This document shows, in pieces, positions 15,313 through 45,576 of a stretch of DNA of 64,000 bases (position 1 is its first letter; every line of letters starts with the position of its first letter). Position numbers and translations under genes: made by a program. The notes beneath the pieces are model-generated. The model was not told the origin of the DNA, made no database searches, and worked only from the letters and a program-made list of their open reading frames with translations. The DNA is from Suillus spraguei (Eukaryota > Basidiomycota > Agaricomycetes > Boletales > Suillaceae): positions 310,001-374,000 of the forward strand of contig JABCPU010000016.1 of NCBI GenBank assembly GCA_016800925.1, in the 5' to 3' direction.

Positions 15313-15421
15313 GAGGCGTTATTTGCGTATGTTTGGCAAAACCTTCTGGATCAAACTTGACATGCTTGACACCTTTCCTCAATTGATAGCATCTAATATT
15401 ATTATAGGCATTTTGATATTT
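15313..15421. promoter_or_regulatory. Divergent promoter SWC3-like/BDP1
   Basis: The two chosen starts are only 109 bp apart on opposite strands, so this stretch must serve both genes. Confidence 0.45.
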
Positions 15422-17835: not shown

Positions 17836-18064
17836 TAATTTTTTGTGTGAGTTACAATCCAGTATTTGTAAACAACACCAGTCAACAAAGCTTGTTAACG
17901 CGTCTTGGCCACCGACGTCGACGTCTAATTGATCTTTTTTCGTTATCTTGGCTTTGTAATCTTAAAACCCGCACAAAAAATCGATTCAGCATTGGCTAGA
18001 ATCACTAGGACTCGTTTCCTAAGTCCCACAGCTCTCATTGCATCACCGTTTCTCTGCCGGAATC

Positions 18065-22169: not shown

Positions 22170-22625
22170 TTAATTGTCGATTCCCATATCACGAGAGGCC
22201 TTGTTGTAATCTTTATATTAATTGTTGTTGGACAATAGATGCAGTCATTTCATGAGTTGCCATCTAATAGGTACGTGAAGTTGTTGGATCTGAAGATCTG
22301 ATAGGTTAAACATAAGTATATGTCCTTTCCGTTTCTCTGCTGGTGATCTGTCTGCCAAAAAAAGGTGGAATGTCGACCCTTGCAAAACTTTGCCGAACCG
22401 CAAGCTCAGCGGACACCCTTGCCAATGTTTTTAGTAATTGAAGGTGAACGCGTCAACCGGATCATGTGACCGTCATACGCGAATTCAACCACGTGATTAA
22501 TAGAAACTCAGGCTGGCTGCCAACCCCTGTACAGACGAATCAAATTTTCATTCTAAAAGAAACATTAAACTAAGATATCCTTCGGACTCCGATACGCATC
22601 ACCAAAATTTGGCCTCGAATATATC
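22170..22625. other. Intergenic region RPB2-REV7
   Basis: No gene is seen. A CACGTG E-box palindrome sits at about 22491, roughly 135 bp before the REV7 start. The rest is plain A/T-rich spacer. Confidence 0.4.
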
Positions 22626-23718: not shown

Positions 23719-23836
23719 CATCCTTGATCATAACTTAATTTAAACTACTAGTAATACATCGTGAACGAAGTCCTTGCATAATGTAGGAGATAACAGGAAA
23801 ACAGGATATGAAAATATTAGATCAGATTAGTGAACG

Positions 23837-25640
23837 CTAAACGTCAACCCGTATACGTTGGATGATAGGTATAATCCGCTCCCACTCTTCCATTGCCTGG
23901 ACCAAATTATGAAACTCGAGGACTAGGCTGATTGAAAGAACAACATACCGACTGATAAAATTCAATTTCACCATCTGCAAGGTTCCCTAGCATTTCTTTC
24001 ATCTCTGCTTCCTTCGTATATTGGAATATAGTTTGCTCTCGCAGAGTCTCATCACTGAACGCATCTGATGTCTCGTGTGCCGTTGTCACAGCATCTTGCA
24101 GCTGACCCCGAGGTTGGAAAAAAATAGACAGGTAAATATCACAGTAAATGCACGCACCTCTTTAATCTTAATATCCAACTTTCTCATCTTCTCGACTCGG
24201 CTCCGATCATCATCAGCGCCCCTGAGAGAGTCCACTTTGTCCTTTAGGTATGCACTCAGCCCCAGACCGGTACTTCCTGCATGTCCTGAAATAACGGCAG
24301 ACAGCCGATCACGTTCTTGTGTTACTCCAGAGAGATAATCCGATAATTCCTCAAAATCAAGTTGCTTCTGGTCACGGAGTTTCAAGACTGCGCGGTTTGC
24401 ATGGGAGTATGTTAGCAGTGAATGAAGATGGACGAGGAAAGGGTCAGTGGTAGTTTGAGTCTGGAAGAAGGGGTGAGTATGTAACTCGAATACTATCAAG
24501 ATATCTTACCTTATGTCTGAGCAATGCAGAAAATTCGAGAAGGGTATTTGAAAAGTGGCTCAGTGGATCTGTAATCCCCGACTCCAGAAAACCAAGCCCC
24601 TGTACGGCAACGGCTAGATCGTGATAATCCGCTGTCAGATCTTCACCAGGAGCGAGACCGCCACCTCGTTCAGCCTCAGATACTCCCTCACACTATTATA
24701 AGGTAGGCTCACCATTTGTGCGACCACGGACGCGGTTCCATAAGCGCTCGCAGGTGACAAGCCCATCCTCAAATTTATCGACAGATTCGCGCATATCGAG
24801 AAAGCGTTCATCGGGCTTCCGTACGCGTGCAAACGCGTTGAGGAGGGTGTCTGAGATGTTATCGATGAGTCCTGGTGTGGGTTCTGGCCCTGGAGGGTGT
24901 GCGAGATGTTGATGCATATGAACGTGCTGGAAGATGTTAGGGGTGTTTGGACGGCGTTAAATCGACGTACCCATTCTGTCGACTCGAGGAACGCACGGAC
25001 GAGAGTGCTACGTTGTAGGGTGGGGTGTCGGGATATCCGTTCGAGGAAACGGTGCAAGCTGTCAAAGATGAGATGCTGAACAAGTGCGCACGCCACACAT
25101 ACGTACTCTAATCTGCGTCGCTCCATAAACTCTGGACTAAAGCGATCGCCCGTCAAATACTCTATGTGTGGTTAGACAATATTGAGATTACGAGGGTAAC
25201 ATATACCTAACCGGTGCTTGTCGGGAAGAGCAGGTACTACGCATGCCGGGAAATCCTTCACAAGATGGTCTCGCAGAAATACGAAGTCCTGGAATCGTCG
25301 ACGAGAGGAAGGAGTGGGAGTGGAGAATATTGGAAGATTGGTCTGAAGACATTTCAAAATTAAGCACAAAAGCTTGAGTTTTATTACGACACACCTTTGC
25401 CGAGACTAGGTAGGAGACGTATGCGTCTTTAGTTTCTGCAAGCTCCTTCACGGGATCTTTGACAGTAACAATGAGATATCCCTCCCACTTTGGATCGTGT
25501 GGACCCCGTTCATCCTCTGTCCCTGCCGTGCTCTGCTTGAAACCTGGGCCAGACGGTTGGACAGTGTGATCGGCGTCATAGGGTGCCGAAGGGGACTCCC
25601 AAGTAACGCTGTCAAAAACGTCCTCTTCGTCACCGAGCAT
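23837..25640 (-). CDS. SNX4: Sorting nexin SNX4/ATG24 (PX-BAR)
   Basis: SNX4 binds PI3P on endosomes and drives recycling to the Golgi and selective autophagy. After an acidic N-terminus comes the PX domain: KWEGYLIVTVKDPVKEL, then SSRRRFQDFVFLRDHL with the PI3P-binding Arg, FPACVVPALPDKHRL and FMERRRL. The C-terminal BAR-type helical region follows (SVDKFEDGLVTCERLW, then LLRHKTQT, KLRDQKQLDFEELSDYLSG and MRKLDIKIKELQ). The last exon ends EEWERIIPIIQRIRVDV with TAG at 23839-23837. The start is the ATG at 25640. About seven short introns are present. It is divergent from the PTM1 gene across roughly 180 bp. Confidence 0.92.
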
Positions 25641-25819
25641 GTTGGGAGCAGTGGTGAACAGCTATTAATTTTCGGGTTCGCTGCTAGTGATGTAGACCGG
25701 TGCTCTCCGGTTATTTACTTGAAGCTGAGCGCAGTAATTGGCGTGAACAAAGTCGATTACTTAGGCTCATCTAAGACGAGAGGCCTTTGGGAAACAAACC
25801 ACAACAAAACGCTTTCTGG

Positions 25820-28136
25820 ATGCACCGAAATTCGAAGCTGCAGGCGATCGCGCTCGGAGTTCTGTCTGCTTGCTCATTTGCAGCTGGATATGAGGTTGAG
25901 TTCTCAGACGCGGACTATTCTCGCCAAGTATGTTCGGGAATGTGGGCAAGCCAGTCCACTTTCATCAACGGTGCGTAGCACGTGCACTACATACGTTCGC
26001 CAGACGCTTACACGACGTGTCATAGTCACATTTGATGAAAGTTCTTCTCAAGGACAGGTAGCAATGGTAATATATGAATGGAAGGATGTCAAATATCTTG
26101 GTGTCGATACCTCCAAGACAGACGACTCCCTACCCGTGAGTTACCCCTTACAACGTGGTTGCCAGGTGACCGAACTCAGAAATTGTACGCCAGCAGAAGA
26201 CCTACGTATGCACAACAGACGCAGTCAGAGTCGGCCTCTGTGCATATGATAATGTCGGAAAATTCATATTCTCGTCTGATGACGGGACCACCGCAAACCA
26301 AACTACTTTCTGGACTGCCAGTGTTGCCCTTAACCAGACCAGTGGCACATCCTCAGAAAGCTTAGAGAATAACTCTGCTACGCCTGCTGATAATCACACT
26401 TTGCCATTGAGATCCCGAGAGTTTTACCACATTCTTCAACAATCGAGTGACCCGAGCCCATCCGGGATCGTTACATATACACAACCTATACAGTACCAAG
26501 TCCGCAAGAAAGGATATTACTGCGTAGGCAAGTTCAAATTATATTGTCTTATCTCTCCTGGCTTATTTCTATTTCAGCTATCCTGCCTGTCACAGTATTG
26601 AATCCCACTACCCGTCAGGTACCTACAGATGTCCCATATCATCCCACATACAGCGGTGTCATCCTTTTCCGCAATACTTTTGATGGACAGCTTCCTGCCA
26701 CCGACTATCCCAAAGTTAACGTGAGCCAAAAACGTAGTCCGCTGTCATCTCTTTAATCACAAGACTTAGTTTTACCTCGCCATGTTCTTTGTATATGTCA
26801 TTGCGGGCTCTGTGTGGGCGTGGCTCTGCTACAAACATGTTACGGAACTATTACCCATTCAGGTTTGTCATGTCCTATACACCTTGGGCGATCTAATATT
26901 CATCTTAGTACTATCTCTCGAGCTTGGTTGCGTTTCTTGTCATCGAAATGGTCGCAAACTGGGGTAGGACATTTTTTTATGACCTCACCTCAGTGCTGAC
27001 TATGTCTAGTATACTACCGATACCTTAATGCACATGGGAAGACCGCGGCGTCCGTTGTCTTCCTTTTTGTTGGTACGGACAATCAATGGAATAGTCATTC
27101 AGTCGCTCAACTTGTACAGTTGCCATTCTGGATGCGGGGCGCAATGCCCTTTCCTTCTTTATGCTCCTCGTTGTATCCCTCGGGCTCAGCGTTGTTTGCG
27201 AATCTCTCGGGCGCACGATGCTCAAGTGTCAGATCCTTGCGGGACTGCACTTTGTTTTCGGAGGTAAACTCCATTCTTCATCATATTTCAATATAGGTGT
27301 AATCATTATTGTCATCAGTACTGTATGCTGTGGGCATAGTTGAACTGGAACTCGAGTCGACATCAGCGTTGATACTGTTGATGTTCGTTATACCACTGGC
27401 ATTCACGCTGAGTGGGTTCATGATGTGGATCCTCTACTCGTTGAATGGTATATTCAATTCATTTTCTTTCATTTTGCGTGCTTTCTCATGTATCTGTTAT
27501 AGGTACAATGAGGCAGCTCAGTGTGCGGAAGCAAAAATACAAACTCAGGATGTTTAAACACCTGTATTATATCCTCCTTGGCACGGTGGTTATCATCGCC
27601 GTATTTTTCGTTATCTCTTCGGTGTCGTTCTCTGATAGGCTAGCGGAAGGTGTGTCGTTATCCGTGAACCAAGTTTTAATCCATCTCAATATATGTGATT
27701 TGTAGATTACGCAGCAAAATCATGGCAGATCCGTTGGTGGCTCCTGGACGGTTACCTCGCCCTCCTCTACTTCTTTACCTTCTGGAGCATTGCGTACCTC
27801 TGGCGACCATCAGAAAATAACCGCCGCCTCGCCATGTCCGATGAAATCGCACAAGAAGACGAAGATGCTGAGGATTATGACCTCGATACACTTCAACAAC
27901 GTACGGTTGCGCGAGAGGACGACGAGATCACACTTGTCAACTCACGGCGAGAACCTGAAGCGCTTGCGGAGGATCACGTTGTTTTTGAAATTGGCGATGA
28001 AGATATAGGAAGCGACGATGAAGGTGAGGCGGCTATAAAGAAGCGGCGTGGCGGGGAGCGTAGATCATCCGGTGATAAACAGGACGGTGCAGATGAGGAG
28101 CGCCAGGGTCTTATACACAAGGACCGAGACGAATAA
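25820..28136 (+). CDS. PTM1: PTM1/TMEM87-type GOLD-seven-helix (GOST) Golgi protein
   Basis: Members of the lung-seven-transmembrane (GOST) family sit in the Golgi and have a lumenal GOLD-like domain followed by seven helices. The start (MHRNSKLQAIALGVLSACSF) is a signal peptide; the upstream in-frame TTG was not used. The lumenal part has several Asn-glycosylation sequons (NQT, NNS, NHT). The helices begin at LAMFFVYVIAGSVWAWLCY and run through ALILLMFVIPLAFTLSGFMM to WWLLDGYLALLYFFTFWSIA, with YLWRPSENNRRLAMSDE right after the last helix, a typical family ending. The cytosolic tail is acidic. About ten introns of 48-76 nt are needed. All exons join in frame. Confidence 0.9.
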
Positions 28137-28469
28137 ACTCTCACGCAACTTATTTTTGTCACTGTTCAGTGTGCCCCAAGTACTTTCGTTTTAGAATCTT
28201 CATTTCTTGATTTTGTAAATCAGCAAAAGGGATTGGGCTAGAACTCGGTCAAGTGACGACGAAGCTTGCTGGATGGAGAGAGTGAGGAGATGACGTCCGT
28301 TATTTATTTTTATAAATAATTTACCTTCTATGTGAACTTTGTCGACATGTTTGGAGCAACTGTCACTCCTACCAGCGAGACAGGTATCTTTATTTCTTTC
28401 ACCTCATTCTTCTAAGTTATACGTCTAACGCGTCCTTGCGGCCATTACGACGCGTTTAAGGCACTTGCC
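28137..28469. other. Intergenic region PTM1-glycogenin
   Basis: No gene is supported. An ATG at 28346 opens a frame of only about 18 codons and could belong to the glycogenin leader as a small upstream ORF. Confidence 0.4.
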
Positions 28470-31400
28470 ATGTCCATTCATTTTGCTTTTGTTACTCTCG
28501 TAACTTCAGATTCCTATCTCCCAGGTGCACTCGCCATTTCGGGTGCTTTGAAGGATGTGCACCAAACTGAACCTCATGAAGTCGAGTACGACACAGTGTG
28601 CATAGTCACACCAGAAACCCTCGATATCACTACCATCAAGCTGCTCAGAAAGACATACGATATTGTTATTGGCGTTGAGGTCATAGGCCAATCAGATCCT
28701 GCTGGACTAAATCTACTGGGTGAGTCGTTGCTCCGTTGACTGGGTTGCGCTGAATGGTATCAGCCGAGGGCACAAAAAACTTTTCTGTTGGAATATCTGT
28801 AACGGTTCCCAGGCCAGTTTCTGTATCGTGCACTTTGTGCCCCAGATGTGGGGTATGAATGCATCGTGTCCAAGCTTCTCCATCAGTCACCCAGCTTTTC
28901 CGCACATAGTGGGAATAACCAGGCTGATATCATGCTCATTTAATTGCAGGACGCCCTGACCTTGATACGGTCTTGACCAAACTACACGTATTCCGCCTCA
29001 CGCAGTACTCTAAAGTAATATTCCTTGATGCGGATGTTCTCCCATTGCGCCCCCTGTCCCACCTATTCCATCTTGATCACGAGTTCTCTGCGGTACCTGA
29101 CGTAGGATGGCCCGATATATTCAACTCGGGTGTGATGGTACTCTCTCCTAGTGAAAATAAGTTCACGGAGCTTCAAGAGCTCCTGAAAACAAATGGAAGT
29201 TGGGATGGTGGCGATCAAGGTATTTTGAATGAGTGGAGGGGAGGCAACTGGAATAGGCTTAGCTTCACGTACAACACGACTCCTACTGCCGCTTATACGT
29301 CAGTAATATCACATCTTCTTTCGCCCGCATGGTTAATGACATACTTATTACGAATCAGGTATGCCCCTGCGTATGAGCGGTTCGGTTCCCAGATATCAGT
29401 GGTGCATTTCATCGGACCTAATAAACCCTGGCACTCCATTCCTTATCGCGCCCCAGGATCCTCCACCCAAGTACCATCATCTCAGATGGAACAGCAGTCC
29501 ACGGTGTCAGAGCCAACAAAGCAACCTCAAGCCTACGACTATGGTTCGCTCGTCGATCGGTGGTACCGTGTCTATGACAAGCACTATCGATCACAACCTA
29601 TCTCATCAGGTCTCGGGATTCCTATCAGCAAATATGGTTCTGCATGGGAAGATGAGGAGAATTCACGGACGGTGGTAGAGTCTGCGGGAGCACCAAGTGG
29701 GAGTCCACTTGGTCTCGATGTCTTACGCCGTTTGGCCCTTCAAGGCATGAGCGTAATGGGCTTCCGGTCTGGTGATCGATTGAAAGGAGAGGGCGAGTAC
29801 AAGAGCATGCCCCTTGACGGGCGTTTCGATCTTATGAGACCACGCCCCGCAAAGCAGATGAAACCTGAGGATCATGATCTTCACCAGACTGCCCCTGAGC
29901 CTCAATCAAATTTCAGCGAGGCAGTCGCTGAACCCACAACACCTGTTCGACAGATAGGCTCACTATCATCGGGTTCACCTGTAAGATGGACTACGTTACC
30001 AACTCCGAATGTCGATGAGGTGCCTCCTGCGCCACAATCGCGCCTATTATCTCTCCCTCCAACACCTCTTCACTTTCCTTCCTTGCCCTCCAAGCCAGTC
30101 GTGCGCTTAAATCAACCAAAGTCGCCCCTTTCGTTGCAAGAACGAAGAATCGAGCGATTGCACCCTTCTTCTCCACCCCTTCTCTCGTGGAATGCTGCAA
30201 TTGAAGCACCACCAACAACCATATCTACTCCCTCCGCACTCCCAAGAGACACCTATTTCCCGAATGTCTGGGACGATTCTCCCTGTAAAAACAAAGATCC
30301 TGGATCATCATCAAGGTCGTCCTCGAGTATGTCGTCTGAGACAGATGCAACGAGTACGGAAGTGAGCCCGGCTCAGGGAGACCCAGCGCCCCAAACACTC
30401 TTCAGCCCACCACCTGTGCCTGATATTCCTCAGATGCTACTCCAGCTGGGGCACTACCGCAATGTCACTGGGCCTACCACTGAGGGTGGCGCTATGCCAC
30501 CCACCCCTGACCTTACCAAGGTCAAGCGTGTCTTCCCTTGGGAGGAGCGCCCTCGTGTTGCTCCTACACGTGTATTCCCGGACGGCGAGCCCCGCCCACA
30601 AGGATCGATGTTCTTTCAGTCCCCGCCTCGTTCCGCGTTCCCATCTACCCCTGAGCGCAAGTTGAGCAGGGAGTTTGGAGCGCACCAGCCAATGCCTTCG
30701 CCATTAACAGGTTTCCCGTCATTGACAGCTGGGAACATGTGGGATGCCGTTCCTGGCATTCAGAAGTTTGCTTCGAAGCTTGCACGTCCTCCAGGGCCCA
30801 CTCCCTTGACAACTTCATTCGAAAACCCGAAGAAACCCTGGGAGGATAAATCAGAAGCTAGCAGTCACGATGGTGATGTAGAGGATGAGATAGACACCGA
30901 TGGGGACGAGGGGAGGCGAACAGTGACAGAGGTACGATCTCGCAGTTCTAGCATCGCAACCGCAAGGAAGAAATACCAATCATTTGGAGTGCAGACGGAC
31001 GCGAAGGAAATGCGCGCTCAGAGTGTGCAGGTTTCTTCAGACGAGGATGTCGCTGTAAAGCGGCCGTTGAAAGCGCGCACGCATAGCGGATCTATGAGGA
31101 AGCATTGGCACCCTTCATCAAGTCTCAGGGCGTTGCCACCCGTGATGGATGTTGCTGCGGGAGCTGAACAAACTGGCTTGTTGTCCCCTAGTGTATCGGA
31201 AGTTTCAACGCCGCGACTTTCTGTTTCCTCAGTTTTGATGGGGGGTTCTCGTGAAACCCCTTTACCTCCGCAGACGCTGAGAGCAGAGATGAGTACGACC
31301 CCGAGTCCACTGCCATCGCCTTCTCCACTGCTTTCCAGCGAATCACCGACTTCGTCGTCTCCAGGTCCTGCATCACCAGCCGAAGGGCAGTCTCCTGTCA

Positions 31401-31528
31401 CCCCTTCTCGAACATCTCGTGTCTGGGATCCTGCTCGAGGAGTAGAACTCTTCAAACGTGGCTCTGAAGAGGTACTCGCTCGATTCCTGAAGATCAGCTC
31501 ACGAGAGGATCCCACCCGTCGGATTTAA
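28470..31528 (+). CDS. GLG: Glycogenin (GT8) with a long disordered tail
   Basis: Glycogenin self-glucosylates a tyrosine to prime glycogen synthesis from UDP-glucose. The GT8 domain has FAFVTLVTSDSYLPGALAI, then KVIFLDADVLPLRP with the Mn-binding DxD, DIFNSGVMVLSP, GGDQGILNEW and VVHFIGPNKPW. Intron 1 (28720-28949) is 230 nt, about four times the local norm. Intron 2 (29299-29358) is 60 nt and in frame if retained. The catalytic part covers about 310 residues. The remaining roughly 600 are Ser/Pro-rich and include VFPWEERP-RVAPTRVF. The protein closes with VWDPARGVELFKRGSEEV, a probable glycogen-synthase docking end. Glycogenin is a known neighbour of the HD mating locus in mushrooms. Confidence 0.93.
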
Positions 31529-32041
31529 CGAGTTCTAAGTATTACGTGTCCGTTACGAGCTTCTTTCCATTTCCTACATGTTATTGATTGCAGACAGATC
31601 TCTCTTTTCCGCTTTACTCTTGTACGATTAGGTCAAGTGCATCTGCATGTATATACCCCAACCATTCTTGCAACGAACTTGATTTTTCTTTCTTCATTAC
31701 GGTTATTTGTTGTATTTTCAGCACCTGTAATCGACAGACAGCATGACTGCTAATCATAAGCTGGAGATCTGCACAGTTTTCGTCGCAGTTAAGCTTCAAA
31801 AAAATGACAAGAACTCAAGTACTATTGTCTAGACAGAATTGGCTGTGAAATCTCGAGAATCACAGAAGCCAACGATTAGCGATAACCTTTGCGTGTAATT
31901 GGATGTTCTGTAACGCCCATCTCTAAACCCTGCGCCTCTAGCTTCCCGATAAGTCAAATGTCGAACAGGATTTCTGATAGAAGGGTGGGTGCATGTACTC
32001 ATCTATTCTCCATAGTGGCGCCCTGTGAAACATGCTGATGG

Positions 32042-32670
32042 GCTATAAGTATTGCGATACATTAAACACTTGCGCTCCGAAACGGGTTACAGAAATGCGC
32101 TTGCTGGAGACAGCAGCACCCCATAGCTGCGCCGCATACTGACCCCCGCGTGGCGAAGTTATAAACCTTCCAGGAAAGTGCACATTGATATTCCGAAGAA
32201 CAATGCATACTACATTCCAAATCCGAAGCCGGTTGGAGTGATGCATATAAATAACTTCCAAAGTCAACCTTGAACGGCGGTGTAATGGAACTTTGAGGAA
32301 GTGATCGAGAGTCACTCAGTGCTATGTCCAGTCAACGACGCAGACTCAAAAGGGCAAAAAATGTCGCTAATATAGAAGTGTGCCTATAAACGGGGTCGCC
32401 GCGGGGGTATTCCTGGAGCGAAAGATCGCCGCGAGTCCTGCAATGTTGTTTGTTATCGTGGGTGCGGGTAATGCGCCCTGCAAAGCATTATGCTATAAGT
32501 ATTCCGATTAGATTCATACGCTTGCTGGATCACAGCAACGCTTGCGCCGCATTGACCGGCCCGAGGTCATTCCGTGAAGAACAATGCAGGTGTCGGTTGG
32601 AGTAATCTTGACATCTAGTCATTCATATAAATAACTTCCAACGTTAAACGGTGAAATTTCGAAGAGTGAT
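32042..32670 (+). repeat. Diverged direct duplication
   Basis: Copy 1 (about 32042-32310) and copy 2 (about 32492-32670) share words in the same order: GCTATAAGTATT, CTTGCTGGA, GCGCCGCAT, GAAGAACAATGCA, GGTTGGAGT and CATATAAATAACTTCCAA (32244 and 32624). Copy 2 is about 70 bp shorter. Neither copy codes. Confidence 0.75.
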
Positions 32671-32815
32671 GGCGATCAGAATGCACCACCTTGAGTTATC
32701 TGTAGCACACATCCGCGACTCGTATACAACGCAGACCGAGTAAGCCTCAAAGGTACGAAAGCGAGTCCTGGCGTAAAATGTGTGAAGTTAATGGTTTGGA
32801 GTACAACCTGGAGTC

Positions 32816-32896
32816 GACGTCATCATAGTCTTACTTGACGCGTGACGTCGCCGCCGCCGCTCCTCTGATGACATCATGGGGCGCAGGTATAAAAGA
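32816..32896 (+). promoter_or_regulatory. CRE-like cluster and TATA box
   Basis: A canonical TATA box (TATAAAAG, about 32889-32896) lies roughly 35 bp before the ATG at 32931. Upstream are GACGTCA (32816-32822), TGACGTC (32843-32849) and the near-palindrome TGACATCA (32869-32876). These match the ATF/CREB-type bZIP site TGACGTCA in half or with one mismatch. Stress regulation is an inference. Confidence 0.6.
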
Positions 32897-32930
32897 CCAG
32901 ACTAATACCACTAAACAATCATGTCGAACA

Positions 32931-33830
32931 CAGTCAACAAAGTTTCCGTTTTTAATACCGAGGAGGCTCAGGGCACCGAGTGAGTGACCTTTCAGTCTAG
33001 AGTCCCTGTGACATTGACCTTTGGTTCCTAGGGGAGCTCGGCATCAGACGACAGCCGCTCACGCGCAGGCTGAAGCACCAAACGCCCGTGTTGCACATGA
33101 AGTTGAGGAGAATGCTGAGCACGTCCAACAAGCAGCAACCAAAGCAGCTCAGGCAGCCCAGGTGAGCTGCGTTCATTCATCCCGGCTAAACTTTACTTAC
33201 ACGTTACACATTGTAGGAAACAGGGCCTGAACTGACAGGAGAGAGAGACACTAGTACTGCCTTTGATGTCTTCAAACGCGAAGCAGCTCAGAAGATAAAC
33301 GCCGCAGCCGCCGAGGGGCAGAGGAATTTTCATACAACCCAGAATACCAGCGCAAGTTATTTAGACCAGGCAAAGACAATGGTGGACAGTTTTTCTGCTT
33401 CTGCTCAGGTGAGATAAGACTTTACATTACTCCTGCACCTGAACGCCTATGCGTATCGCAGGACTATCTTCACGGTAGCACAGACCCGAAAACCACTTCA
33501 AACAAGAAAGGAGGAGACGCCGTATCATCATCGCAGATGTCGTCTGCTGTTGAAACTGCCCAGCAGTACCTTGCATCCGCACAAGTCGCCGCTCAACCAC
33601 ACATCGACGTCGCACGAGCCACTTTGCAACCCCAGGTCGAGAAAGCACGGGAGACAGTGGAAAGTTACCTCGGAATGCACTCTGGTACTTCGCCTTCTGA
33701 TGCGGTTACTCCGCCATTGACTACGCACCCAACTACCGGCGCGCCCTCGAGTGGTCAAGATGTTACGAGCACGCCATACGCTGCTAGTGCAGATAATAGA
33801 AAGCTGGAGCCCGAGTCCAAAGTCGCGTAG
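32931..33830 (+). CDS. Ala/Gln/Glu-rich helical, LEA-like protein
   Basis: I do not recognise a named family. The protein is about 240 residues, rich in Ala, Gln, Glu, Lys and Thr. It has long amphipathic stretches (EENAEHVQQAATKAAQAAQ, then SSAVETAQQYLASAQVAAQ and RATLQPQVEKARETVESYL), the character of late-embryogenesis-abundant or lipid-surface stress proteins. It lacks a signal peptide and membrane helix. Exons are 32931-32979, 33032-33161, about 33217-33408 and about 33463-33830, with GTGAG donors. The promoter has a strong TATA box and CRE-like sites, unlike most genes here, consistent with inducible expression. The LEA label describes composition, not proven homology. Confidence 0.65.
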
Positions 33831-34294
33831 AATGTTATAATACCGAGGAATTGTGTAGCCATAGGTGCAATATCGTTTATCGTCCATAGTCTTGAAGACT
33901 TCCTCGAGTTCGCTCTTCGATTATCCAATTTGCGGTCAAGGCAAACACTTTGCGTGAAAAAGTGACAGCATCAGGTGGGTTGGGTTACTCGCATGATCTG
34001 GCGTCGCCGTAAGAAAGCCTAGAATCGAATCTAAGCGAGGCAGCTAACTTCTTTTACTGACACAGTGACAGGGAACGTTCCAATTGACTATCATGTCAAG
34101 ACTAGCACTGGTTTTCGAGTCCAATCAGATGAACGTTGAATGGAAGAAACCGAAATGGCTGAGATTAGATCAAAACCGGCTAACTGCGTTAGCAGTCAAA
34201 GCCGGGGTGATAACGATGCTGCGGCAGTGCCTCTTGGAGTCTCAGATAATAGGTCCCAGTATCTGGATCCACCTACATTCAAACTCCCATCATC
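33831..34294. other. Intergenic region before the beta-flanking gene
   Basis: No independent gene is supported. An open frame crosses 34084-34569 but it is an overlap of the beta-flanking gene in the wrong frame. The 5' leader and promoter of that gene lie here. Confidence 0.45.
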
Positions 34295-35172
34295 ATGGTA
34301 GGTTGCTTTGCGCGGCACAACCTGCCTTCCGGAGTCGCAAATTGATTAGATTTGCACATAGGATACTTTCATCAGTCTCGCAAAGCAAGGTTACGAGTCA
34401 TACTCCGAGTCTCAGAACCAGTGTAAGCACCCATCCACCATCCATATCACAGGAATATTCAAACGCAGTGACAGCCCACGTACACAAGACCGGAGGCCAA
34501 GAGTTCAACTCTCCCGACAACCGACCCCCTCAATCTCACAGACCCTCATGTACGTCGTTTGCCCGGTGATCACTCCCATCGCGCTCACAAGCAGACAGAT
34601 AACCAGGATGAAGTAAGCCAGCACGTCGACTCTTCAAACCACCAGTTCTTGAACCAGGCGCTGTCTCATGCGCACAAGGTTTGTCGTTCCCGTTGAACGC
34701 CTCGAGACTTTTTCTCATTACTGCAAATCAGACTGTCCAGCACCAAAGTGACATCGATGAGGATGGCGTCCAGAACCTCAAAGATGCTCACGAACAGGCA
34801 TTCAGCTCTGGGGGCCCACAAGGCATGGCACCCGATGCATTGGGTGGAGCTGCGGCCTTCAAAGTAAGCCGCCTCGCGTACGATCAAGTTCAAACTCACA
34901 ATTCTGCAGGTGTTCACAGACATGATGAGCGGTGGCGGCGGCGGAAGCAGTGGTGGAGGTAATGGTATGCAGAGCAAGCTTATTGGCATGGCCATGCAAC
35001 ATGCCTCCTCGCTCTTTGACCAGTCTGGTGGCGGATCTCAAGAGGCTAAACAAAGCACCATGAACAGCGCTGCTACTTATGTCACGCAGCTTTTGATGAA
35101 GAAGGAGATGAGCAGCTTCATCGGTGGCGGCAACAGTGGAGGCTTGAGCGGGATCATGGGCATGGTGCATTA
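34295..35172 (+). CDS. bfg: Beta-flanking gene (DUF7721-type) of the HD mating locus
   Basis: The beta-flanking protein is a small conserved fungal protein of unknown function that borders the HD mating locus in many mushrooms. The first coding exon appears to be the ATG alone (34295-34297), followed by a 64-nt intron (GTAGGT to CATAG, 34298-34361) and then DTFISLAKQGYESYSESQ, the expected N-terminus. Later exons give FLNQALSHAHK, DIDEDGVQNLKDAHEQAF, ALGGAAAFKVFTDMM and a Gly/Ser-rich end with LIGMAMQHASSLFD and GGLSGIMGM. Introns at about 34679-34731 and 34865-34909 are clear. The join near 34420-34480 is not resolved. It is transcribed toward HD2. Confidence 0.82.
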
Positions 35173-36008
35173 ATTCCTGGTTTTATCTTTCATGACATCT
35201 GATCCCGTCCTCTAGGCAAGCAAGTTCTTGTAAATGCGTCAAAGGGAAAGAAGACTTTGAGAAGTTTTGTATCTTAGGTGTGGTGCCCGCCTACGTTGTA
35301 GACTTGCTTTTGTGAAATCTATTGTGTCGTGCCTTGCAAATCTGTGCATTCATTTCTACCCGTTCTCCGTCCAAGAATGTGTCAGGGACGACATCTGGGG
35401 TTCTTGTTTGAATGAATCATATTCACTGTGGTTTGCGTGTTCTTATTCTGTACAGTTGTGCTTCACAGTACTCCCTTGTGCATAAGTGGTGATTTGTGTA
35501 CGAATTATTTTGTTTCTTCATTGGGTGGAATTGGGTCAGAAATGGAGTCGGGGATTTGGTGCGTGAGCACCGTTACCGATAAACTAATACCGAATTTCAA
35601 AGAATAATGGGCTTGTGGTCTTGCTGAAATTTGAAAGCTGCGGTCCATTTTGTCCCGCTTAGTGGCAGCGATACATCTCGTATTCTGTTACAGACAGCTT
35701 ACAGACAGCAAGTACAGATTAATATAACAATGACTAGATAACATCGACGAGCAAAAGCAAGGATATCGCGCCTAAAAAAGGGCAGCAACTAGACAGCGAT
35801 AGCAGGATACCTTGTCAGAGACATAGGATCTTCGGTGCATAGGGACCGCTTCAGGGTATTAGATGAAGGGATGCAATGGGGCGCGCCGTAACCCGTCGTC
35901 ACCACTGGATGTTCCGCAGCAGCGAGGCCTGGCGTTACCAAAGGTAGAAATAAAGCTCTATCTAGAGCATGCTCAAACGGAGTCCGTAGACTCCCACCGC
36001 AGAGCAGC
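35173..36008. other. Intergenic region between beta-flanking gene and HD2
   Basis: This 836-bp spacer separates convergent 3' ends. I looked for further homeodomain fragments (a WFxNxR motif) on both strands and found none, so no second HD pair is hidden here. No repeat is obvious. Confidence 0.6.
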
Positions 36009-37869
36009 TCATGACGGCGCGCGAACAGGATTTGCCGCTGGGGTCGCACCGAAGGAGAAGTCGAATGTCGGTAACTTCGGGGTATGCTCATTCCTGAATA
36101 TGCTTGAATTAAAGTAGAGCTGAAGTCCCTCCGCCGGTGAGGGAACGCTTTCCAAAGCATCGCCGAATAAATTAGTCATATTTGAAGAGAAATTGTATAA
36201 TGACACTGGAGGAGACGCAAGCTGTGAGGAGAATGAAGGGGGCGTCGTGACGCCAGAGGAACTGCCGGATGTAGAGCTCGCGCTTGAGAATAGGCGGCTC
36301 TGCGAGGAACTCTCAGACCCAAGTGAAGACGAACGCGGGGGGGATGATGGCGAAGGTGAGGCGACAGACGCCTCGGAAACAGCTGGCGTGACACCCCTGT
36401 GAGAAATTGGGTTTCCATGAGGGATGCGTTTTGGTAATGGTGCCATTTTCCGGCGACGAGCTTTTTGCCCTATTGGGGTCTCGGAGGCTGGCATTAATGT
36501 GATAGGTCTTGATTGAGGACTGGGAGTATCGAAGACATGACGACGAGATGCGGTTGCAGGAACAGAAAGTAGGGGAACACGGACGGGTGCAATACGCGTA
36601 GCTGTCCCCCGAATGAGGGCAGGCAGAGGTGCAGGGAGGGGTATAACCGTAATAGCAGCCACAGCCGCAAATGAATCGACACTGCCACGTGAACGCAAAC
36701 CAGGATCGTCCAGAATGTTCATCCTCGAGAAGTGCTCTATAAGTCCATCAATGTCCAATGCATGACGTCGAACAGCTATGGTCGCCGGGCGCCGGAGCCA
36801 TTTTGGCGCACCGAAATTCGTCATACCATTCTTCGATGGGAAAGGATCATACGGGCATGAGGGGGGATACGACGATGGAAATGCATGCAAAGGTGCCAGA
36901 GGTTCGAGTGGGTTGCACCATTTGTCTGCGATAGACATCTATATAAGACTATGAATAAAACGAAGATGAAGGATATATCACATTTACCATCTCGTCTCCC
37001 TGCTTGATAGGAGAATGCAGAGAACTGGGAGGCGATACGGGCGCCTTCTTTTCTTCCGGTATAATAAACTTCTCCATACGCTGATACAGATTATCCAAGG
37101 GAAGAGTGGCACCTTCGGTCACTGCTTTCTTTCTTAAGATTTGACCTTCTTTCTTCATTCTGTTGCGCCTGTTTTGAAACTTAGGGATTATCAACATCAA
37201 GAGCTACTGTATGCCGATAAATATGTATACCCAAACATGAATTTGACGATATGTCATTGCGGATTTCTTTGCAAGGAAAGCTTTATCTGCCTGAGTTGGA
37301 AACGGGTTCTCTGCGAAGAAGTATTCGAGCAATGGGACATATGCCTGTGACGAAATAAACAAAGGAAGGCTGGACAGGTGAAGGTAGGACATCGGACGTA
37401 CGTGATTAAACCTTGAGGCACCACTCGAAGTTTGTGTATCGTGACGAGTTGCAGAATGTTTAAGATAGAAGTCGACACACTCCTGTCTCCAAGCAACAAG
37501 TTCCCTGAGATATGACTCGGTGAATGAGGACAAAATTTTTTGTTCTGGGACATAGCGAAGCTTGGACGGGTATTGGGCCTGATTTGAACACACAAGAGTT
37601 AAAGTCGAATGATAGAAAGCTCGTAAATCAACGGCCCGCTTCTGGTATGCTTGGTCCATCGCCAGTGAAATGTCGAGACAGGCACCAGCAGCCAAGAGAG
37701 CGGGTTGCATCGAGGGTGGGTCAGGAAGGCAGATATTAGCGATGGGTTGTTGTGGAGAACATGATTGAGGTGCGTATAAGTGTGATGACGAAACAGAGGA
37801 ATGAGTAACGAAATCTTGAGAACGTTGTATGATTCGCTTTAGGATCTCTGAAGTCGTTCCGGCCGTCAT
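36009..37869 (-). CDS. HD2: HD2 homeodomain mating-type transcription factor
   Basis: HD2 proteins pair with HD1 from a different mating-type allele to form the active regulator of clamp-cell and dikaryon development. The four exons fit exactly: 37869-37402, 37344-37231, 37179-36988 and 36938-36009, all phase 0, giving 567 residues. The homeodomain spans residues of about 160-215: YVPLLEYFFAENPFPTQADK, KSAMTYRQIHVW, and after a 51-nt intron FQNRRNRMKKEG, so the canonical W48-F49-N51-R53 are intact. The N-terminal ~155 residues are the specificity and dimerisation region. The C-terminal half is Ser/Pro-rich with a basic patch (KARRRKMAPLPKR). The start is MTAGTTSEIL; the longer open frame begins only with TTG. 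It is divergent from HD1. Confidence 0.93.
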
Positions 37870-38088
37870 CGAAAAAGTTGTATGCGAGCGGTATAATGGC
37901 AACCAGGTTGAAGTACTGAGTAGACAATGAAAATGATGTGTTTATTGATATTTTATCAATTGACATCAAATTAAAGTTCTGTATTGTTTGCCAAACAAAC
38001 ATACACACGTCTCGCGGCATTTGGCACTTCCTGCTCATTCCTGTCCACAATCTCATCTTGAGCCTCTCATCAATTTCAAACTCTCCAG
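37870..38088. promoter_or_regulatory. Divergent HD2/HD1 promoter
   Basis: The 219 bp between the start codons must carry both promoters. It is A/T-rich with several TATA-like stretches (for example TTTATTGATATTTTATC near 37941). Such divergent promoters are typical of HD pairs and are the expected site of feedback by the HD1-HD2 dimer. Confidence 0.6.
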
Positions 38089-40175
38089 ATGGACAAAGAC
38101 ATACGCCAGCGCCTCCTACAAGCAGAGGACACTCTACTTGACTCAGTTTCTCGCGATGACAATTTCGAGTCTTTGATGTCATTCAAATCATCTTGGAATT
38201 CATTCTATGCAGATTTTTCACGCTGTATATCCTCAGGAGAACTATCCGACGACACTATATCGCTTGCGCACTCGGTGGCTTCGAGAATTGGTCTTATCAC
38301 GAACTGCTTCTCTGACTTTCACAAAACATGTGAAGAATCAACCAACCAATTTCTTGAGGGCGTGAATAGCATTCTGGATCGCTTCGGTCGTATCATTATT
38401 TCACCTCCAACAATAATCTCAGCACAAAATTTACAATCATCGGAATCTTCTTTAGCCTTGTTTATCGAACCGGCCTACAATTGGCTGCTTGCTAATATCC
38501 ACAACCCTTACCCGTCTTCTGATACAAAAGCCAACATTGCCAGCAGCTCTGGGTGTTCCATGAGCTCTGTTACTCTCTGGTTCATTAGCGTTCGTCGTCG
38601 CGTCGGCTGGACGGCGATTTGCCGCAAACATTTCAAAAACTGCCGAGCCGATACTGTTGATGCTGCTTATCGTGCCCTGGTCAAAGAAGACCCTGTTCGT
38701 GTTCTAGCACCCGCCATTTTTCATGACTTCCAGCAGATGAAGGCTACTACACGGGATCTGTATGCTTCTACATTCACCAAAAGCGCATTGGCGGGTGATC
38801 TTGACGCGGTGGTTAAGGATATGACGGAAGAGGACAGATTGCGATTGGAGCGGGAGAAGAAGGAGCGCGTACAAAAGGAAAAGAAACGACGCGAAGAAGA
38901 GAAGGAGATGCGGAGAATCCAGAGAGCCCTTGATAAACGGGCCCAGAAGATACACACAACTTTTGCTTCGTACCCATCTCCCAGTCGTTCTCGCACTCCG
39001 TCTCCCGTTCCCATTCTCGAGGAATCGTGGCCAGACGAGAGTGAAGATGAAGAAGTCGATTTCATTCCTTCCGTTCTTGCTGGTCGGAAGCGACGTGCCT
39101 CTATATCGTCTGAATCAGCTAATCCTAGACAATTTGGCTGTGCAGATCGCCCGATGAAACGCCTTCGGTAAGCCACCATCATGCATTGGGCTAGTTGCTA
39201 CTGATTGCCATTTGTCAGGTCTAGTGTGATGGTCCCGACTCCTCTTGCAAATACTTCCGCCTTGCCATCGCCCCCATCAAGTAGTAACGGATTGGATGGC
39301 AGCGATGAGGTCCAAATCATTGCGTTTCAATCATCTTCAGAGTCTTCGCGAAAACGAAGATTGTCAGACGCTGATGCTCACGCTGTGCCCAAACGTCCTC
39401 ATGGTCTCCATGTTGGACCCCGTGTTCATGCTGTATCTGATCCTCTCCCGAGAGCACCCGCTCTTCTTGACTCAAACATCGATGACTGGTTCCAGACGAA
39501 TTTCTTGGAGATCCCTGGTCCAGTTGAGAATGTTGGTTTCGATCAGTTTACTCCTCTTGACATTGAAGTCTTCAATGGATATATATTCCCTGACACACAT
39601 ATAAGTTCCATCGAACAACCTTTCCAAAAGAACTGCATCCCTCCCGCTCTGGTAGATGGCACGTCTGCACGATCATATCCTGCGATCTCCCACTAATTTT
39701 TTGCCCAACAGTGACATCGTTCGAGGCAAAATTGGCCAATTTGGAGGTTCCTTCACATGCTCCTCTTCCTGCACCTGGTCTAGGTGGTCTTGAAGATTTC
39801 AATTTCTTCAACACGATATCTACAATTGTTCCCAATTATTCTAACGAGGCAACCGGAGCTTCCACGGCGATTGACACCATCTTCCAGCCGCCAGTTGACC
39901 TCGTTCCTTCGAATTCTTTCAGTTGGACAGATCTTTTAAACCTTGAACAACTGTCCGACATTAATCAATTTCCACTGTCATCGTCTTGCGATGACTTGTC
40001 ACAGCTATTACCAGAGATTGATCTCTCTGTGCTCCAGCTTCCTCCATTGTTATACCCTCCGCAACCTCAACCTCCTTCGCCTGCTGATTGTGCTCGCTTG
40101 GCGAAGCTGGAACAACTTCAGCTCCTAAGAGAACAAACGCGACTACTGGAACAGGATCTAGCAGTATCTGTGTAG
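38089..40175 (+). CDS. HD1: HD1 homeodomain mating-type transcription factor
   Basis: HD1 is the partner of HD2 in the A mating-type system. Exon 1 is 38089-39167, followed by a 51-nt intron (39168-39218). A second intron lies near 39651-39725, with uncertain borders. The N-terminal ~125 residues are helical and variable, as expected for the specificity region. The atypical (TALE-like) homeodomain is at about residues 125-175: FIEPAYNWLLANIHNPYPSS, then SSVTLWFISVRRRVGW. Residue 167 is Ser (codon AGC, 38587-38589) where homeodomains carry invariant Asn51. A charged coiled coil follows (EREKKERVQKEKKRREEEKE), then nuclear-localisation-like runs (AGRKRRAS, SSRKRRLS, VPKRPHG). The Ser/Pro/Leu-rich tail may activate transcription. 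The product is about 655 residues. Confidence 0.93.
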
Positions 40176-40524
40176 GTATTTTTGTTTTTTCTTGGCTGCT
40201 TTATTTGCTGACTCTGGAGTTAGATGACCGTCGATTTGTCCTCTTCGTTCACGCTGTTCATATTCCCTACGCGGTCTATCAAGATATAAGCGATATATTA
40301 TTCATATCATATCATCGTGCGCATTGCACATTGCATACCCTACATCATGCATCATGTATGACATTCATCCCGCATTTACCTTGTTCACTTGTTACATTTT
40401 CCTTCGCTTCACAATTACTCTGTATGTACCGGAATCAATCAAAAGTGATCTGTGTCATAATGCAATAATTGTGCTCTAGTTTAAGAACAAATACCGCGGT
40501 GAATGGTTTCATGTAGCATAGATC
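40176..40524. other. Convergent spacer HD1-MIP
   Basis: The 349 bp between the HD1 and MIP stop codons is A/T-rich and holds only the two 3' ends. Confidence 0.5.
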
Positions 40525-42990
40525 CTAATGTCTTTCCGGAACGACTCCATCTTCCATCCTCCATCTACCAACTTCTCGCATTGCTTCTGCATCTCCGACC
40601 TCTAACTCAGGAGCATCAAGCAATGCACTGAGCATCAACCACGGATCCCTCCCACCACCGTACTTCAACACCTCCTGCTTGTATTTGTCTCCTAACTGGC
40701 GGTTGAGTGGGTCAGCAGAAAATATCTTCCGCCACACGTGTGATGCAATAGCGCGATCGAAGTGATAGGAATAGTATGTTGCACCATATCCAAAGAGGTG
40801 CCCGAACTGCGTTTGGAACGATGTCCCAGGTGCATGCGGGATCAGACCGCGAGTATTGTACAAGTTCGCGAGAGCGGTCGTCGAGTCGAAGCCCGGCTCG
40901 AGGACGGAGGGGGAATGATATACCTGGTCAAGCAGAGAAAGTAAGGTGTGATTATGGGTATCAATGTATCGGCACGGATCTTCATGGTGATTTCCGATTT
41001 GGTTGATGATAGAAGAGCCATCAGTGTCGAAGAGAGAGAGAACTTTTGAGGAGTTGAGGAAGTGCTCCATGAGGATGGAAGGTAATTCGACAAAGTCAGT
41101 CGCACAGCGCGTCCCTGCAACATTATGGTACTCTGTTCGACCAATCATGGCTGGTACCTTGTCAGTAGTCACGATCTCAGCGAGATCGAGGAATTCTCAC
41201 AATGCATGGCATGTCCCATTTCATGGAACAAGGTTTGAACTTCATACCATTCGAGAATGGTAGGGCCCCGGGCAATAGATGGTGGTACAAAATCGCAAAG
41301 CAGGACTACCAGTGGCAACTGGAACTCACCATGCTCGCCGCGTAATGTGTGCCGCTTAGTTGCTTCGAATTCGATAGAGGGACCAACGAATTCATCTGTT
41401 CCGGGTATTCGTAGATCGCCAGCTTCGTCGTCATCGTCCGTTCGTCTGGAGCACCTAACAGTGTAATGTGCCGCTCCGCGCGACTTCCCACTACGGGCGA
41501 AGAGATCAGCATATATCCAACCAACGACGCCTCTGTCTTCGTCAACCACTTCTAATTTATGTACGTCAGAGTGCCATACTTCGCTAGATGCAACATCAAC
41601 GGGTCGTAACGTTATTCCATAGAGGTGTTTAAATAGTCGCGAAAGGCCCATAAATACACGCCCGAGTGAAAGAGGAGGGAGAGGAACTGGTGGTGCTGGC
41701 AGTTCGGGTGGGCAATAATAATCTCTATCCCATGCCTGGATAATAGGAAGGTTCATCGATTTAAGATGCGCTTGCTTCCGCAGACGCAATGTATGCAATG
41801 CTTTGCGGGCAAGGGGCGTAGTCCGATCTAAGAAGGTGCCCAAAAAATGATTGACATTTTCTACGTAAATTGGATATCAGGACTGGCCGACGTACTACCA
41901 CACGTAACCGCTCACCCGGAGTTTTTGCCATCTTGTCGCTTAGTGTCATTCCGGCATAACTGTCCCAGCCTACTAGGCGGCTCAGCTGTGCACGCGCATT
42001 CAGCAACCGCTCAAGGCGGTCAATTTGCTCTGCACTGCTCATATGACCTGCCATGTACACCTTTCTTCGTGGTTCTTCGTCAGGCGCCGCACGCAAGATC
42101 ATATAGGCTTGGTGAGAGCCCGGATAGACCAGCAAGTCCTTTTGCGTAAAAAATGCTTGTCTTTGAAGGCGAGCGCCCATCCCTTGATCCTTCAAACCTT
42201 CGAGCTCGGAGGGCTTGATCTTCACCGGTGGTCGCGGGGCAGAAGCTTCCGTGACAAACTCGTGACCCACAGACAGAATCTCGGATGAAAGGGACACAAA
42301 TCTCTCCCTTTGGTCCGGCGGAAGTTTGATAGCAGACTTTTCGAAATCATGCCAGAATATCAACGCTGTTTGAAGTGCCTCCTGACTAAGGGACTTGACG
42401 ATTTCTGGGTCGTGTAGTACAGTGTGCAGCACCTGCCAAAGGAGGTGACATCTTGAGATATGGAAAATTGCATGACTCACTTCATATAACCCAACGTGAG
42501 TATTCAGTACATTCATGAACTCGCATAATTTCTCGTAGCTCTCCGTAGCGCAATCCACCCACTGAGTATCAGGATGTGCATTCCGCAACAGCTCTGCCAG
42601 ATCGATAACACCACACAAGAGATCACTGAGTCTGTCTAGATTCTTGATCACTTTGAAGAGCTCAGATCGAGATTCCCTAGCCCGCAATATTCGTTCTGTC
42701 AGGAGTTGCGCGCGTACGAGGGTCGAGTCAGTGAGCGCACTAAACGCAGCTGGCGTTGTCAGTTGAGGATGCTGAAAAATGCCTGCGACAAATAACGGTG
42801 AGGTTTTCTGCCCTGTCTGCGGTTGGTCGAAGAGAGAGACCAGTTCTGCATCGTCCGAGGATGGAGGTCTCACCAGAGTTGATGCTGTTCGACAGACCAG
42901 GCCAAGTTCGTGAGAACGAAAATTACCACGAAACTTTGGTACAGATCGTGATATCTTCTTGAAAGCATTCTCCGCGATACGTGCAATCAT
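40525..42990 (-). CDS. MIP: Mitochondrial intermediate peptidase (M3 family)
   Basis: MIP (yeast Oct1) removes an octapeptide from imported mitochondrial precursors. The N-terminus is basic ([19 protein letters not shown]), a matrix-targeting presequence. The zinc site is intact at about 41200-41225: [12 protein letters not shown], with the HExxH motif; the downstream part continues [12 protein letters not shown] and [20 protein letters not shown]. Introns include one in the presequence-proximal half at about 42430-42485, one at about 41866-41920 (phase restoring [10 protein letters not shown]) and one at about 41157-41205 just after HAMH. The product is about 760 residues. In Agaricomycetes MIP is the classic tightly linked neighbour of the HD genes, and its 3' end faces HD1 here. 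Confidence 0.96.
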
Positions 42991-43462
42991 TCACGGAGCT
43001 GGTCGTGATCTTGAAGTAAAAAAGTCCACTCAATGAGGTCTTTCACCGTGACCTTTCCGATAATTGCACCCGGATAATTATTACCTAAAAGCAGTCAACC
43101 AGCAACTTGAACCGTGCACGCTTCGGCCCCCTCGGAAAAAAGTATCAGTCGGAATGGTTGGTTACATTTGTAAAAACAACAGTATCATGATCGCTAATAA
43201 ATCGCACATGGGGGTACAAGATGAAGTGATAAGCTTGCCGCGTTTTTTTTTTTTGGAAAAGTGAATAGATGTACAAATATGGAGGATCAAAAGTTCACTG
43301 CTGTATCATCACTGCAAGACCTACATAGGTCAGAGGGAGTAATAAGATGAATGATTAGACTAGGCTGATCAATGGATGAGGCTTTGCTGGTATGTGGAAT
43401 ATTATGGAGTGCGAGTAAAATGGTGAAAAAGAATAAAATGCCATAAGCGCCGAGATAGAAAA
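42991..43462. other. Intergenic region MIP promoter / DDT gene 3' end
   Basis: No gene is seen. A run of eleven T sits at about 43244-43254. The MIP promoter lies within the first 200 bp. Confidence 0.45.
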
Positions 43463-45576
43463 TTATGCATACCCCCCCAGGGGAACTGGTGACAAGCTAA
43501 ACTTTCTCTGGCTGTCAGTGTCCATCGCATCTTCTTTGCCATGTGCCGGGAGCAAAGTGTTACTACTGGTACCGGAGCGGCCGGTATCTCCGTTGTATTC
43601 ATGACCGTTCACGGAGGTTGAACCACTGCCACCAGGTGGTAGGACGTCAGAAGGCGCAGAGATCGGTTCCACGGCATAGAACCAAAACTTGCTCTTCTTT
43701 TTCCCTCCAAGCTGTTCAACTGCAATCTCAGTTGGTTTGACAGCTGCTGCACCATTTGCTTTTGCCTTTGAGACGCCGTTTGAATTCTCGACTGGCAAGA
43801 CTGGAGGCCAACCTGCAGACGTAGAACTCATCGTGCTTTCTTCCGTTCGAGCACGTTTTGATGGACGCTCCACAGGTGTCTCTTCAGAAGGGCCGAGACG
43901 AGCCGACCTCCTTTCGCCTTTCCATTCAAAAGCAGACAAATCAGGGGAGGGTCGCTTGGTTTTTGTGGCGCGAGTGGATCTCCGCTGCGCAGTAGCCCCC
44001 GGCTGTCGACGGCCGTGTGATCGAGAGCTACCAAAGTTATCCTCCGCAAACGGCTCGTCGTCATAATCATTGTCTTCCTCAAATTGATATTCATCCGCAT
44101 CATCCTGATCACAAAAATAAGTTAGCAATCGAAATTAAACTTAATGCCGGCCGCTTGCCTCCCCACTCTCGGTGTCATGATACACGTAGTCGGGTCGACG
44201 AGTTTGTCGCCGCGTGCGAGTCTGTCGAATTTCGGCTTGCGCCATGAGTATCTGACGCTGCTCTATCTTCTTGCGGACCCTTTGTATGCGCTGAACAATT
44301 GGTGAGAAAACATTTTAAGTGGTGTTTCAAGTGAAAGTAAAATTTATCTATTATTTACTGCTGATCACGACAAACAAATACTCACCGCTAAGTCCGCGTC
44401 AACAATATCTATCCGGCTTTCGAGTGCCTTGACGAGTGCAGTATGGGCCTGTTCTAGTTTGTTTTTACGATCGCTTTGCGGGGAAGATGCTTTCAGCTTC
44501 TCAATCACAGCAAGGTACTCTTCACGCGTTGAAGAGACCGCCTGGAACGTCGCAGTGATTTTCCAGGGGTTAGTTGAAACGTATATCCGTGGGGAATCTA
44601 AGATAGATTAGAAACGGGAGTCAGCCGAAAATCCTTACGGACGGCTAACGCCGGATAACATGGGGGCCAAAAAAATGCGGCCTCGCACCAAATACACGCA
44701 AATAGGAAAGAGGGCGAGGAACTTGAAATGAAAGACACACGAACCATCTGCGACCCAATACCGCTTGCGTTGTGCATCCTGGCCTAATGGAACAAGTTGC
44801 AGATTCTGCTGGCTCTTGGAATCATTGGATTCAGGAGGGGCAGTTTCAGGGTCTTTCTTCTTGTGTTTATTCTGCATCACGCCCCACGCGCGATCAACAG
44901 TGCTTTTTATGTCAATGGAATGCGTGAGCTGTAATTCCACAAGCTGGCGAAGAACTTGGAGCTGTATGGAATGTAACGTGACGCGCGCTCAGGGGTAATT
45001 CGTACAGCATGGCAAGACAATGACAAACTTTGAGATCCCAATCGGCTGCGAAAAACCCGCCTTCTAAATCGGCAAAAGGGTTCACATTCGCCCTCAGTTC
45101 GTCGTCCCAGAAAACAGTTCGCTCCGATGCCTTGAATGCATCAACAAGGACAGCATTTAAAGTGGCAGAGATCTGATCAAGACTGACAAAAGCACACATG
45201 ACGGTCAAACATTCCCCATGTGTGAACGAGCTGTGGCAAACAGCGCTCACCTCAAATTACGCGTCTGCGGCCGCAGATTCAGTATAAATTGCTGTAAAAT
45301 CTTTTGAAGTATGGGATCTGGACCATGCGTTAAGAGGGCATTTTCAAAGCTGTCATCGGGGGAAATCGCGTGTTTAGTTGACGCAAGTGAGGTGCATGTA
45401 GTGCGGGTGTGTGCTCACTCCATCGGTGTTTCCAATCCCTCTACCTTCGACCTTAGATTCGTGAATTTGCATATGAAAGAGTACACAAATAGTGACTCCC
45501 ATCTATCGGAAGGGTGTTTAGCATTTGAAGGAGGGCAGATATGCCCTTTCTTTTCTGTCTGCGGTGCAGCAGACAT
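43463..45576 (-). CDS. DDT/WHIM-like chromatin-associated protein
   Basis: The N-terminal part reads like a DDT domain: WESLFVYSFICKFTNLRSK, then FENALLTHGPDPILQKILQQ. The next block resembles WHIM helices: LVELQLTHSIDIKSTVDRAW, then QDAQRKRYWVADDSPRIYVS. DDT-WHIM proteins bind ISWI-type remodellers or histones. The C-terminal half is highly charged and disordered, with Arg/Lys-rich and acidic stretches (RRQTRRPDYVYHD, EDNDYDDEPF) and KKKSKFWFYAVEPI near the end. Start chosen: ATG at 45576 (MSAAPQTEKKGHICPP). About six short introns. I cannot say which remodelling complex it belongs to; ITC1- or RSF1-like roles are guesses. Confidence 0.6.

Follow-up and report, generated by a model that had tools for sequence, protein, structure and literature searches.

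The window analyzed here (the whole 64,000-nucleotide stretch, C325:310001-374000, from an assembly of 86.2 Mb in 1256 contigs) very probably contains the homeodomain (HD), or A, mating-type locus of the mushroom Suillus spraguei. It would carry a single allele of a single pair of divergent genes, HD2 and HD1, in which the HD2 protein reads the bases of the target DNA and the HD1 protein dimerizes and holds the DNA. What is new here is that the DNA-contacting asparagine at homeodomain position 51 (Asn51) is replaced throughout the sampled suilloid HD1 proteins, and repeatedly in HD1 proteins elsewhere, whereas it is unchanged in HD2. The locus spans positions 34295-42990 of the window and is composed as follows.

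34295..35173, + strand: beta-flanking gene of the DUF7721 family, several short exons, locus edge on the HD2 side
36009..37869, - strand: HD2 gene, 567 aa, introns 37401-37345, 37230-37180 and 36987-36939
37870..38088, no strand: 219-base divergent promoter region separating the start codons of HD2 and HD1 in the gene models
38089..40175, + strand: HD1 gene, 660 aa, introns 39168-39218 (GT-AG) and 39659-39711 (GC-AG)
38587..38589, + strand: AGC codon for Ser at HD1 homeodomain position 51 (residue 167), where Asn is usual, from the gene model and the alignment to PKNOX1 and Meis
40525..42990, - strand: mitochondrial intermediate peptidase (MIP) gene, Peptidase_M3, splicing assembled by hand, locus edge on the HD1 side

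The gene order and strands proposed in a first-pass annotation of this DNA, namely beta-flanking gene (+), HD2 (-), HD1 (+) and MIP (-), are borne out by the gene models and by Pfam, and its description of a complete single-pair Agaricomycete HD locus is supported by the same evidence together with searches of the assembly. HD1 and HD2 lie on opposite strands, their start codons 219 bases apart, in the arrangement of divergent transcription. The HD1 protein matches Mating_N, Homeobox_KN (positions 1-40 of 40) and Mating_C, all above their cut-offs and together the domains of an HD1 protein; HD2 matches Homeodomain and, more weakly, Homeobox_KN. Peptidase_M3 was matched on both pieces of MIP tested, and the gene product shares 94% identity with the MIP cluster that has Suillus americanus as its representative (among the best 120 of 208 MIP matches). 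The beta-flanking gene scored 28.2 bits against PF24845 (DUF7721, cut-off 27) from a crude splice; better spliced models were built, with provisional exon boundaries. The HD pair is thus linked to MIP and to the beta-flanking gene, with DUF7721 barely above its cut-off, in the layout described by Mujic et al. (2017, PMC5473757).

The spliced HD2 and HD1 models are identical to the deposited proteins P0121 ('homeodomain protein 2 [Suillus spraguei]') and P0001 ('C-terminal domain of homeodomain 1-domain-containing protein [Suillus spraguei]'), respectively, and therefore the sequence is already public. The earlier expectation that the allele was likely undescribed does not hold, both proteins being deposited under this species name and 100% identical. 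The GC-AG boundary of the second HD1 intron (39659-39711) is also required by the deposited protein. No paper on the S. spraguei HD genes was found in the open-licence literature; the MIP sequence of Suillus pictus, in taxonomy the same species as S. spraguei, is cited in PMC5473757. A simple scan of the 219-base promoter for an operator of the GATG(N)ACA type gave one loose match, on the reverse strand only, which does not count as evidence of function and was not used.

The two partners differ in their recognition helices. HD2 has the full WFQNRRNR reported by the first-pass annotation, conforms to the WFxNxR motif and carries Asn51 at residue 197. HD1 reads WFISVR, with Ser at the place of the Asn of the PKNOX1 and Meis TALE homeodomains, and because the alignment to these two is gap-free, HD1 can be assigned to the longer TALE type. 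The same annotation had rightly called the HD1 homeodomain atypical and longer, but overlooked the loss of Asn51 in its WFIS. The HD1 protein search scored 7992 candidates and is represented by the best 120 of 131 matches; the HD2 search listed 69 rows. None of the 39 readable suilloid HD1 rows (P0001-P0038 and P0040, assigned by name or high identity) has Asn at position 51 (37 Ser, 2 Gly), and a fortieth, P0039, lacks a residue in this column and was counted with the remaining rows. By contrast, Asn is kept in 67/67 readable HD2 rows. Over all readable HD1 rows Asn is absent from 76 of 118, a raw share inflated by Suillus sampling, the rows having been gathered with a Suillus query; Asp, Glu, Tyr, Lys, Arg or Gln occurs in other HD1 rows. 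The state of position 51 changed at least five times among 39 Boletales HD1 rows chosen for a careful tree. Non-mating homeodomain genes of the assembly with a readable recognition helix keep Asn51 (WFQN; WMIN on C647).

The WFxNxR motif has been given for both HD1 and HD2 (PMC10739230). HD1 of S. spraguei departs from it, and with 76 of the 118 readable rows lacking Asn, the motif does not define HD1. That the DNA-recognition motif of HD1 is typically poorly conserved is already in print (PMC8305134), so the direction of this result is not new. No paper counting Asn51 in mushroom HD1 was found by title and abstract start in the open-licence literature, and the excerpted part of PMC4901127 holds nothing on Asn51.

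Searches with PF05920, PF00046, PF12737 and the HD2 protein found one mating HD pair in the window and in the assembly, and no second mating pair in the assembly; the locus is not a multi-pair A locus, which would hold at least two HD pairs. The first-pass annotation had offered two readings of this, a simple A locus or the loss of a second subcomplex, and it is the former that agrees with published loci: a single divergent HD pair was reported in every genome examined except that of Coprinopsis cinerea, including Suillus and Rhizopogon (Mujic et al. 2017, PMC5473757). In the HD1 tree, for which Serpula was assumed as the root, the suilloid rows fall into a single clade (29/29 rows used, support 100), and the extra HD1 copies of Boletaceae (two HD1 groups) branch in a clade without suilloid rows (support 93/97 in the careful tree). 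Given these reports and the separate Boletaceae clade, the single pair is most reasonably seen as the condition of the Suillus-Rhizopogon lineage, and loss of a second subcomplex is not supported. Leucogyrophana, Imleria, Butyriboletus, Tylopilus and Chiua each have two HD1 or two HD2 rows, seemingly on the same contig (P0159/P0160, P0054/P0070, P0052/P0074, P0170/P0173 and P0172/P0178). More than one HD pair thus seems to occur in some Boletales, although single pairs were found in the Boletales examined in PMC5473757.

A mechanism can be proposed from four observations, namely gene structure, family membership, the way the Suillus rows diverge and the distribution of Asn51. In the dikaryon, HD1 of one nucleus would pair with HD2 of the other by way of the variable helical parts at their N termini, partners encoded by the same allele would not pair, and the heterodimer would enter the nucleus and switch on the dikaryon genes. 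In other mushrooms, partner choice is made by the N-terminal parts, nuclear localization signals and an activation domain are contributed by HD1, and DNA is bound more strongly by HD2 (PMC8305134, PMC10739230). The Asn51 pattern fits and sharpens this picture, in that base reading would rest on HD2. Labor would be divided between an HD2 with a full base-reading homeodomain and an HD1 that has kept the TALE fold and the basic face of the recognition helix, has lost Asn51 and would hold DNA through its arginines; this HD1 would provide for dimerization, entry into the nucleus and activation but read little sequence itself. We infer from the residues that base reading by HD1 is reduced. A stronger and more general statement, to which we would give about an even chance, is that HD1 has ceased to read bases in the Suillus-Rhizopogon lineage and on repeated occasions in other mushroom fungi, its fold and basic DNA-facing residues staying constrained while Asn51 is gone, and the heterodimer reading DNA through HD2 alone.

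Divergence within Suillus was tabulated for 25 HD1 and 24 HD2 rows with species names, two partial HD2 rows and unnamed rows being excluded. Variation is highest in the N-terminal parts (mean identity 0.64 for HD1 and 0.64 for HD2), intermediate in the C-terminal parts (0.79 and 0.80) and lowest in the homeodomains (0.84 and 0.81); the HD2 homeodomain minimum of 0.278 was retained, although one row may be mis-modelled, perhaps that of S. bovinus (P0154, without a Pfam domain). MIP identity between three Suillus clusters is 0.88-0.91, and one 90% MIP cluster comprises 38 member sequences (same best 120 of 208 matches). Four conspecific Suillus HD pairs are 74-82% identical, inside the between-species range, as would be expected under balancing selection: 196/298 between-species pairs are more alike than the S. 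occidentalis HD1 pair (0.75), 226/274 than its HD2 pair (0.74) and 106/274 than the S. brevipes HD2 pair (0.77). One S. occidentalis HD1 allele clusters with S. hirtellus (98), away from the other S. occidentalis allele. Such a pattern is the one expected of alleles kept for long in several, not all, of the sampled species.

Several points weigh against the account given so far. The S. americanus HD1 pair (0.82) is exceeded by 10/298 between-species pairs. In the HD2 tree both R. vinicolor rows, both R. salebrosus rows and two of the three S. brevipes rows are sisters, and therefore deep allele splits are not kept in every species sampled. Because each protein row stands for a 90% cluster, near-identical conspecific alleles are hidden, and the Suillus query mentioned above swells the count of HD1 rows without Asn. 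Serine is still able to hydrogen-bond, and Ser51 may alter rather than remove base reading. Finally, the assembly yielded no second A allele for the isolate, and S. spraguei is known here from one allele.

The point about serine can be extended into an alternative, possible although in our view doubtful, in which HD1 has not lost base reading and Ser51 marks a changed DNA preference used by the heterodimer. In its favor, the remaining recognition face (W48, F49, R53-R55) is invariant in 29/29 named suilloid HD1 rows, R55 being a base contact in homeodomains (PMC5240567), and the HD1 homeodomain is as conserved as that of HD2. However, 2 of the 39 suilloid rows have Gly at position 51, and the assortment of Asp, Glu, Tyr, Lys, Arg and Gln in other HD1 rows fits the loss of a contact better than the gain of a single new one. 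The loss of Asn51 could also be taken to mean that HD1 is decaying and that HD2 alone matters, which is scarcely tenable: the HD1 reading frame is intact, its C-terminal tail is conserved, its homeodomain is more conserved than its N-terminal part, and Ser or Gly is found in 29/29 named suilloid HD1 rows, including those of S. luteus and R. roseolus, species given in PMC5473757 as bipolar and heterothallic. An HD1 with reduced base reading that is retained as a partner of HD2 is the reading preferred here.

Two further alternatives concern the locus as a whole. That another HD pair controls mating, the pair at 34295-42990 being a remnant, might be suggested by the further homeodomain genes of the assembly (10 matches in a general homeodomain search, three of them on C325), yet it is very improbable. 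Judged by eye, those other genes are non-TALE or, on C647, a non-mating TALE, and no divergent HD1-HD2 pair was seen among them; Mating_C was found above its cut-off only at 34295-42990, an additional PF12737 match on C247 staying below cut-off at 16.7 bits, and HD1 and HD2 are both intact. A second, polymorphic HD pair elsewhere that alone controls mating had been named beforehand by the first-pass annotation as one of the observations that would count against its reading, and no second mating pair was found in the assembly by homeodomain, HD1 C-terminal and HD2 searches. The other alternative, that the isolate has one A allele only, as a homokaryon or with two nuclei sharing A, agrees with the single copy returned by each of the HD2, HD1 C-terminal and MIP searches and with the lack of a second copy in queries with flanking DNA. 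The DNA of 32500-44000 gave only three short matches elsewhere and that of 12501-32500 short repeat-like matches only; because both long queries left the window itself unlisted, with one candidate each unscored (presumably the window), shorter pieces were rechecked, and the 5' DNA of MIP and the 3 kb to its right match only the window. This alternative is nevertheless unlikely in view of two regions outside the window (L025-L028):

C47:96000-108200: pheromone-receptor region, three STE3 genes
C692:2000-19400: pheromone-receptor region, three STE3 genes

These regions are collinear, with 8.4 kb at 94.9% identity, and one receptor on C47 has 42-58% identity to its counterpart on C692 in aligned pieces. 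Since they look like two B haplotypes, the assembly is probably a mixture of two haplotypes from which the second A allele is missing, having remained unassembled; two receptor loci within one nucleus may be an alternative. The 13.5 kb contig C201 duplicates part of C334 at 99% identity over the 9 kb that were compared (L042, L043), which also points to haplotype contigs left in the assembly. In PMC5473757, too, a second HD allele was not recovered separately when dikaryotic tissue of Rhizopogon and Suillus was assembled. If S. spraguei were bipolar like S. luteus and S. granulatus, receptor haplotypes so deeply diverged within a single isolate would be unexpected. The diverged receptor is also placed differently on C47 and C692 relative to a region of small CAAX-ending open reading frames.

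The trees give somewhat different neighbors for the two S. spraguei genes. The HD1 tree used 72/120 rows selected by name, without unnamed environmental sequences, those of Mycena and Heterobasidion and several others, the careful HD1 tree 39 of those 72, including 9/29 suilloid rows, and the HD2 tree 54/69. HD1 of S. spraguei groups with S. subluteus (96/90), and in a quick HD2 tree HD2 groups with S. fuscotomentosus (95). Careful tests reject the S. fuscotomentosus grouping for HD1 (p 0.008) and leave the S. subluteus grouping of HD2 unrejected (p 0.155); these tests included partial HD2 rows for S. luteus and S. brevipes and assumed which HD1 row of S. americanus belongs with which HD2 row. 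No claim of reshuffling between HD1 and HD2 is made, the HD2 test permitting the S. subluteus grouping. Left of the locus, around 17000-17850 of the window, short stretches have many 72-98% matches genome-wide and are likely repeats.

The locus itself is textbook and already deposited, and the useful part, of modest interest, is the contrast between its two partners. The repeated changes in HD1, set against an unchanged HD2, bear on an old idea, the inequality of the subunits of the mushroom mating switch, which is testable by one residue change.

Compared with known systems, the locus is closest to the A loci of Suillus luteus, S. brevipes and Rhizopogon, which likewise have one divergent HD1-HD2 pair adjoining MIP and the beta-flanking gene, and whose assemblies from dikaryotic tissue share the lack of a separate second HD allele (Mujic et al. 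2017, PMC5473757). It differs from them in its species and allele, the nearest full-length deposited species having 79% identity for HD1 and 78% for HD2 (among the matches listed). The A locus of Coprinopsis cinerea shares the principle of the HD1-HD2 heterodimer but has several HD genes in two or three pairs instead of one. The heterodimer is an activator in mushrooms and, as MATa1/MATalpha2, a repressor in yeast. The yeast structure 1le8, by its title a triple-alanine alpha2 mutant with a1 on DNA, is presumably an engineered analogue of a partner without Asn51; no paper on this triple mutant was found in the open-licence literature. If the mushroom heterodimer does read DNA through HD2 alone, it would be a natural counterpart of an a1/alpha2 dimer whose alpha2 lacks Asn51. 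With the TALE homeodomains of Meis, PKNOX and PBX, HD1 of S. spraguei shares the fold and the three-residue loop extension, but where PKNOX1 and Meis have Asn51, it has Ser.
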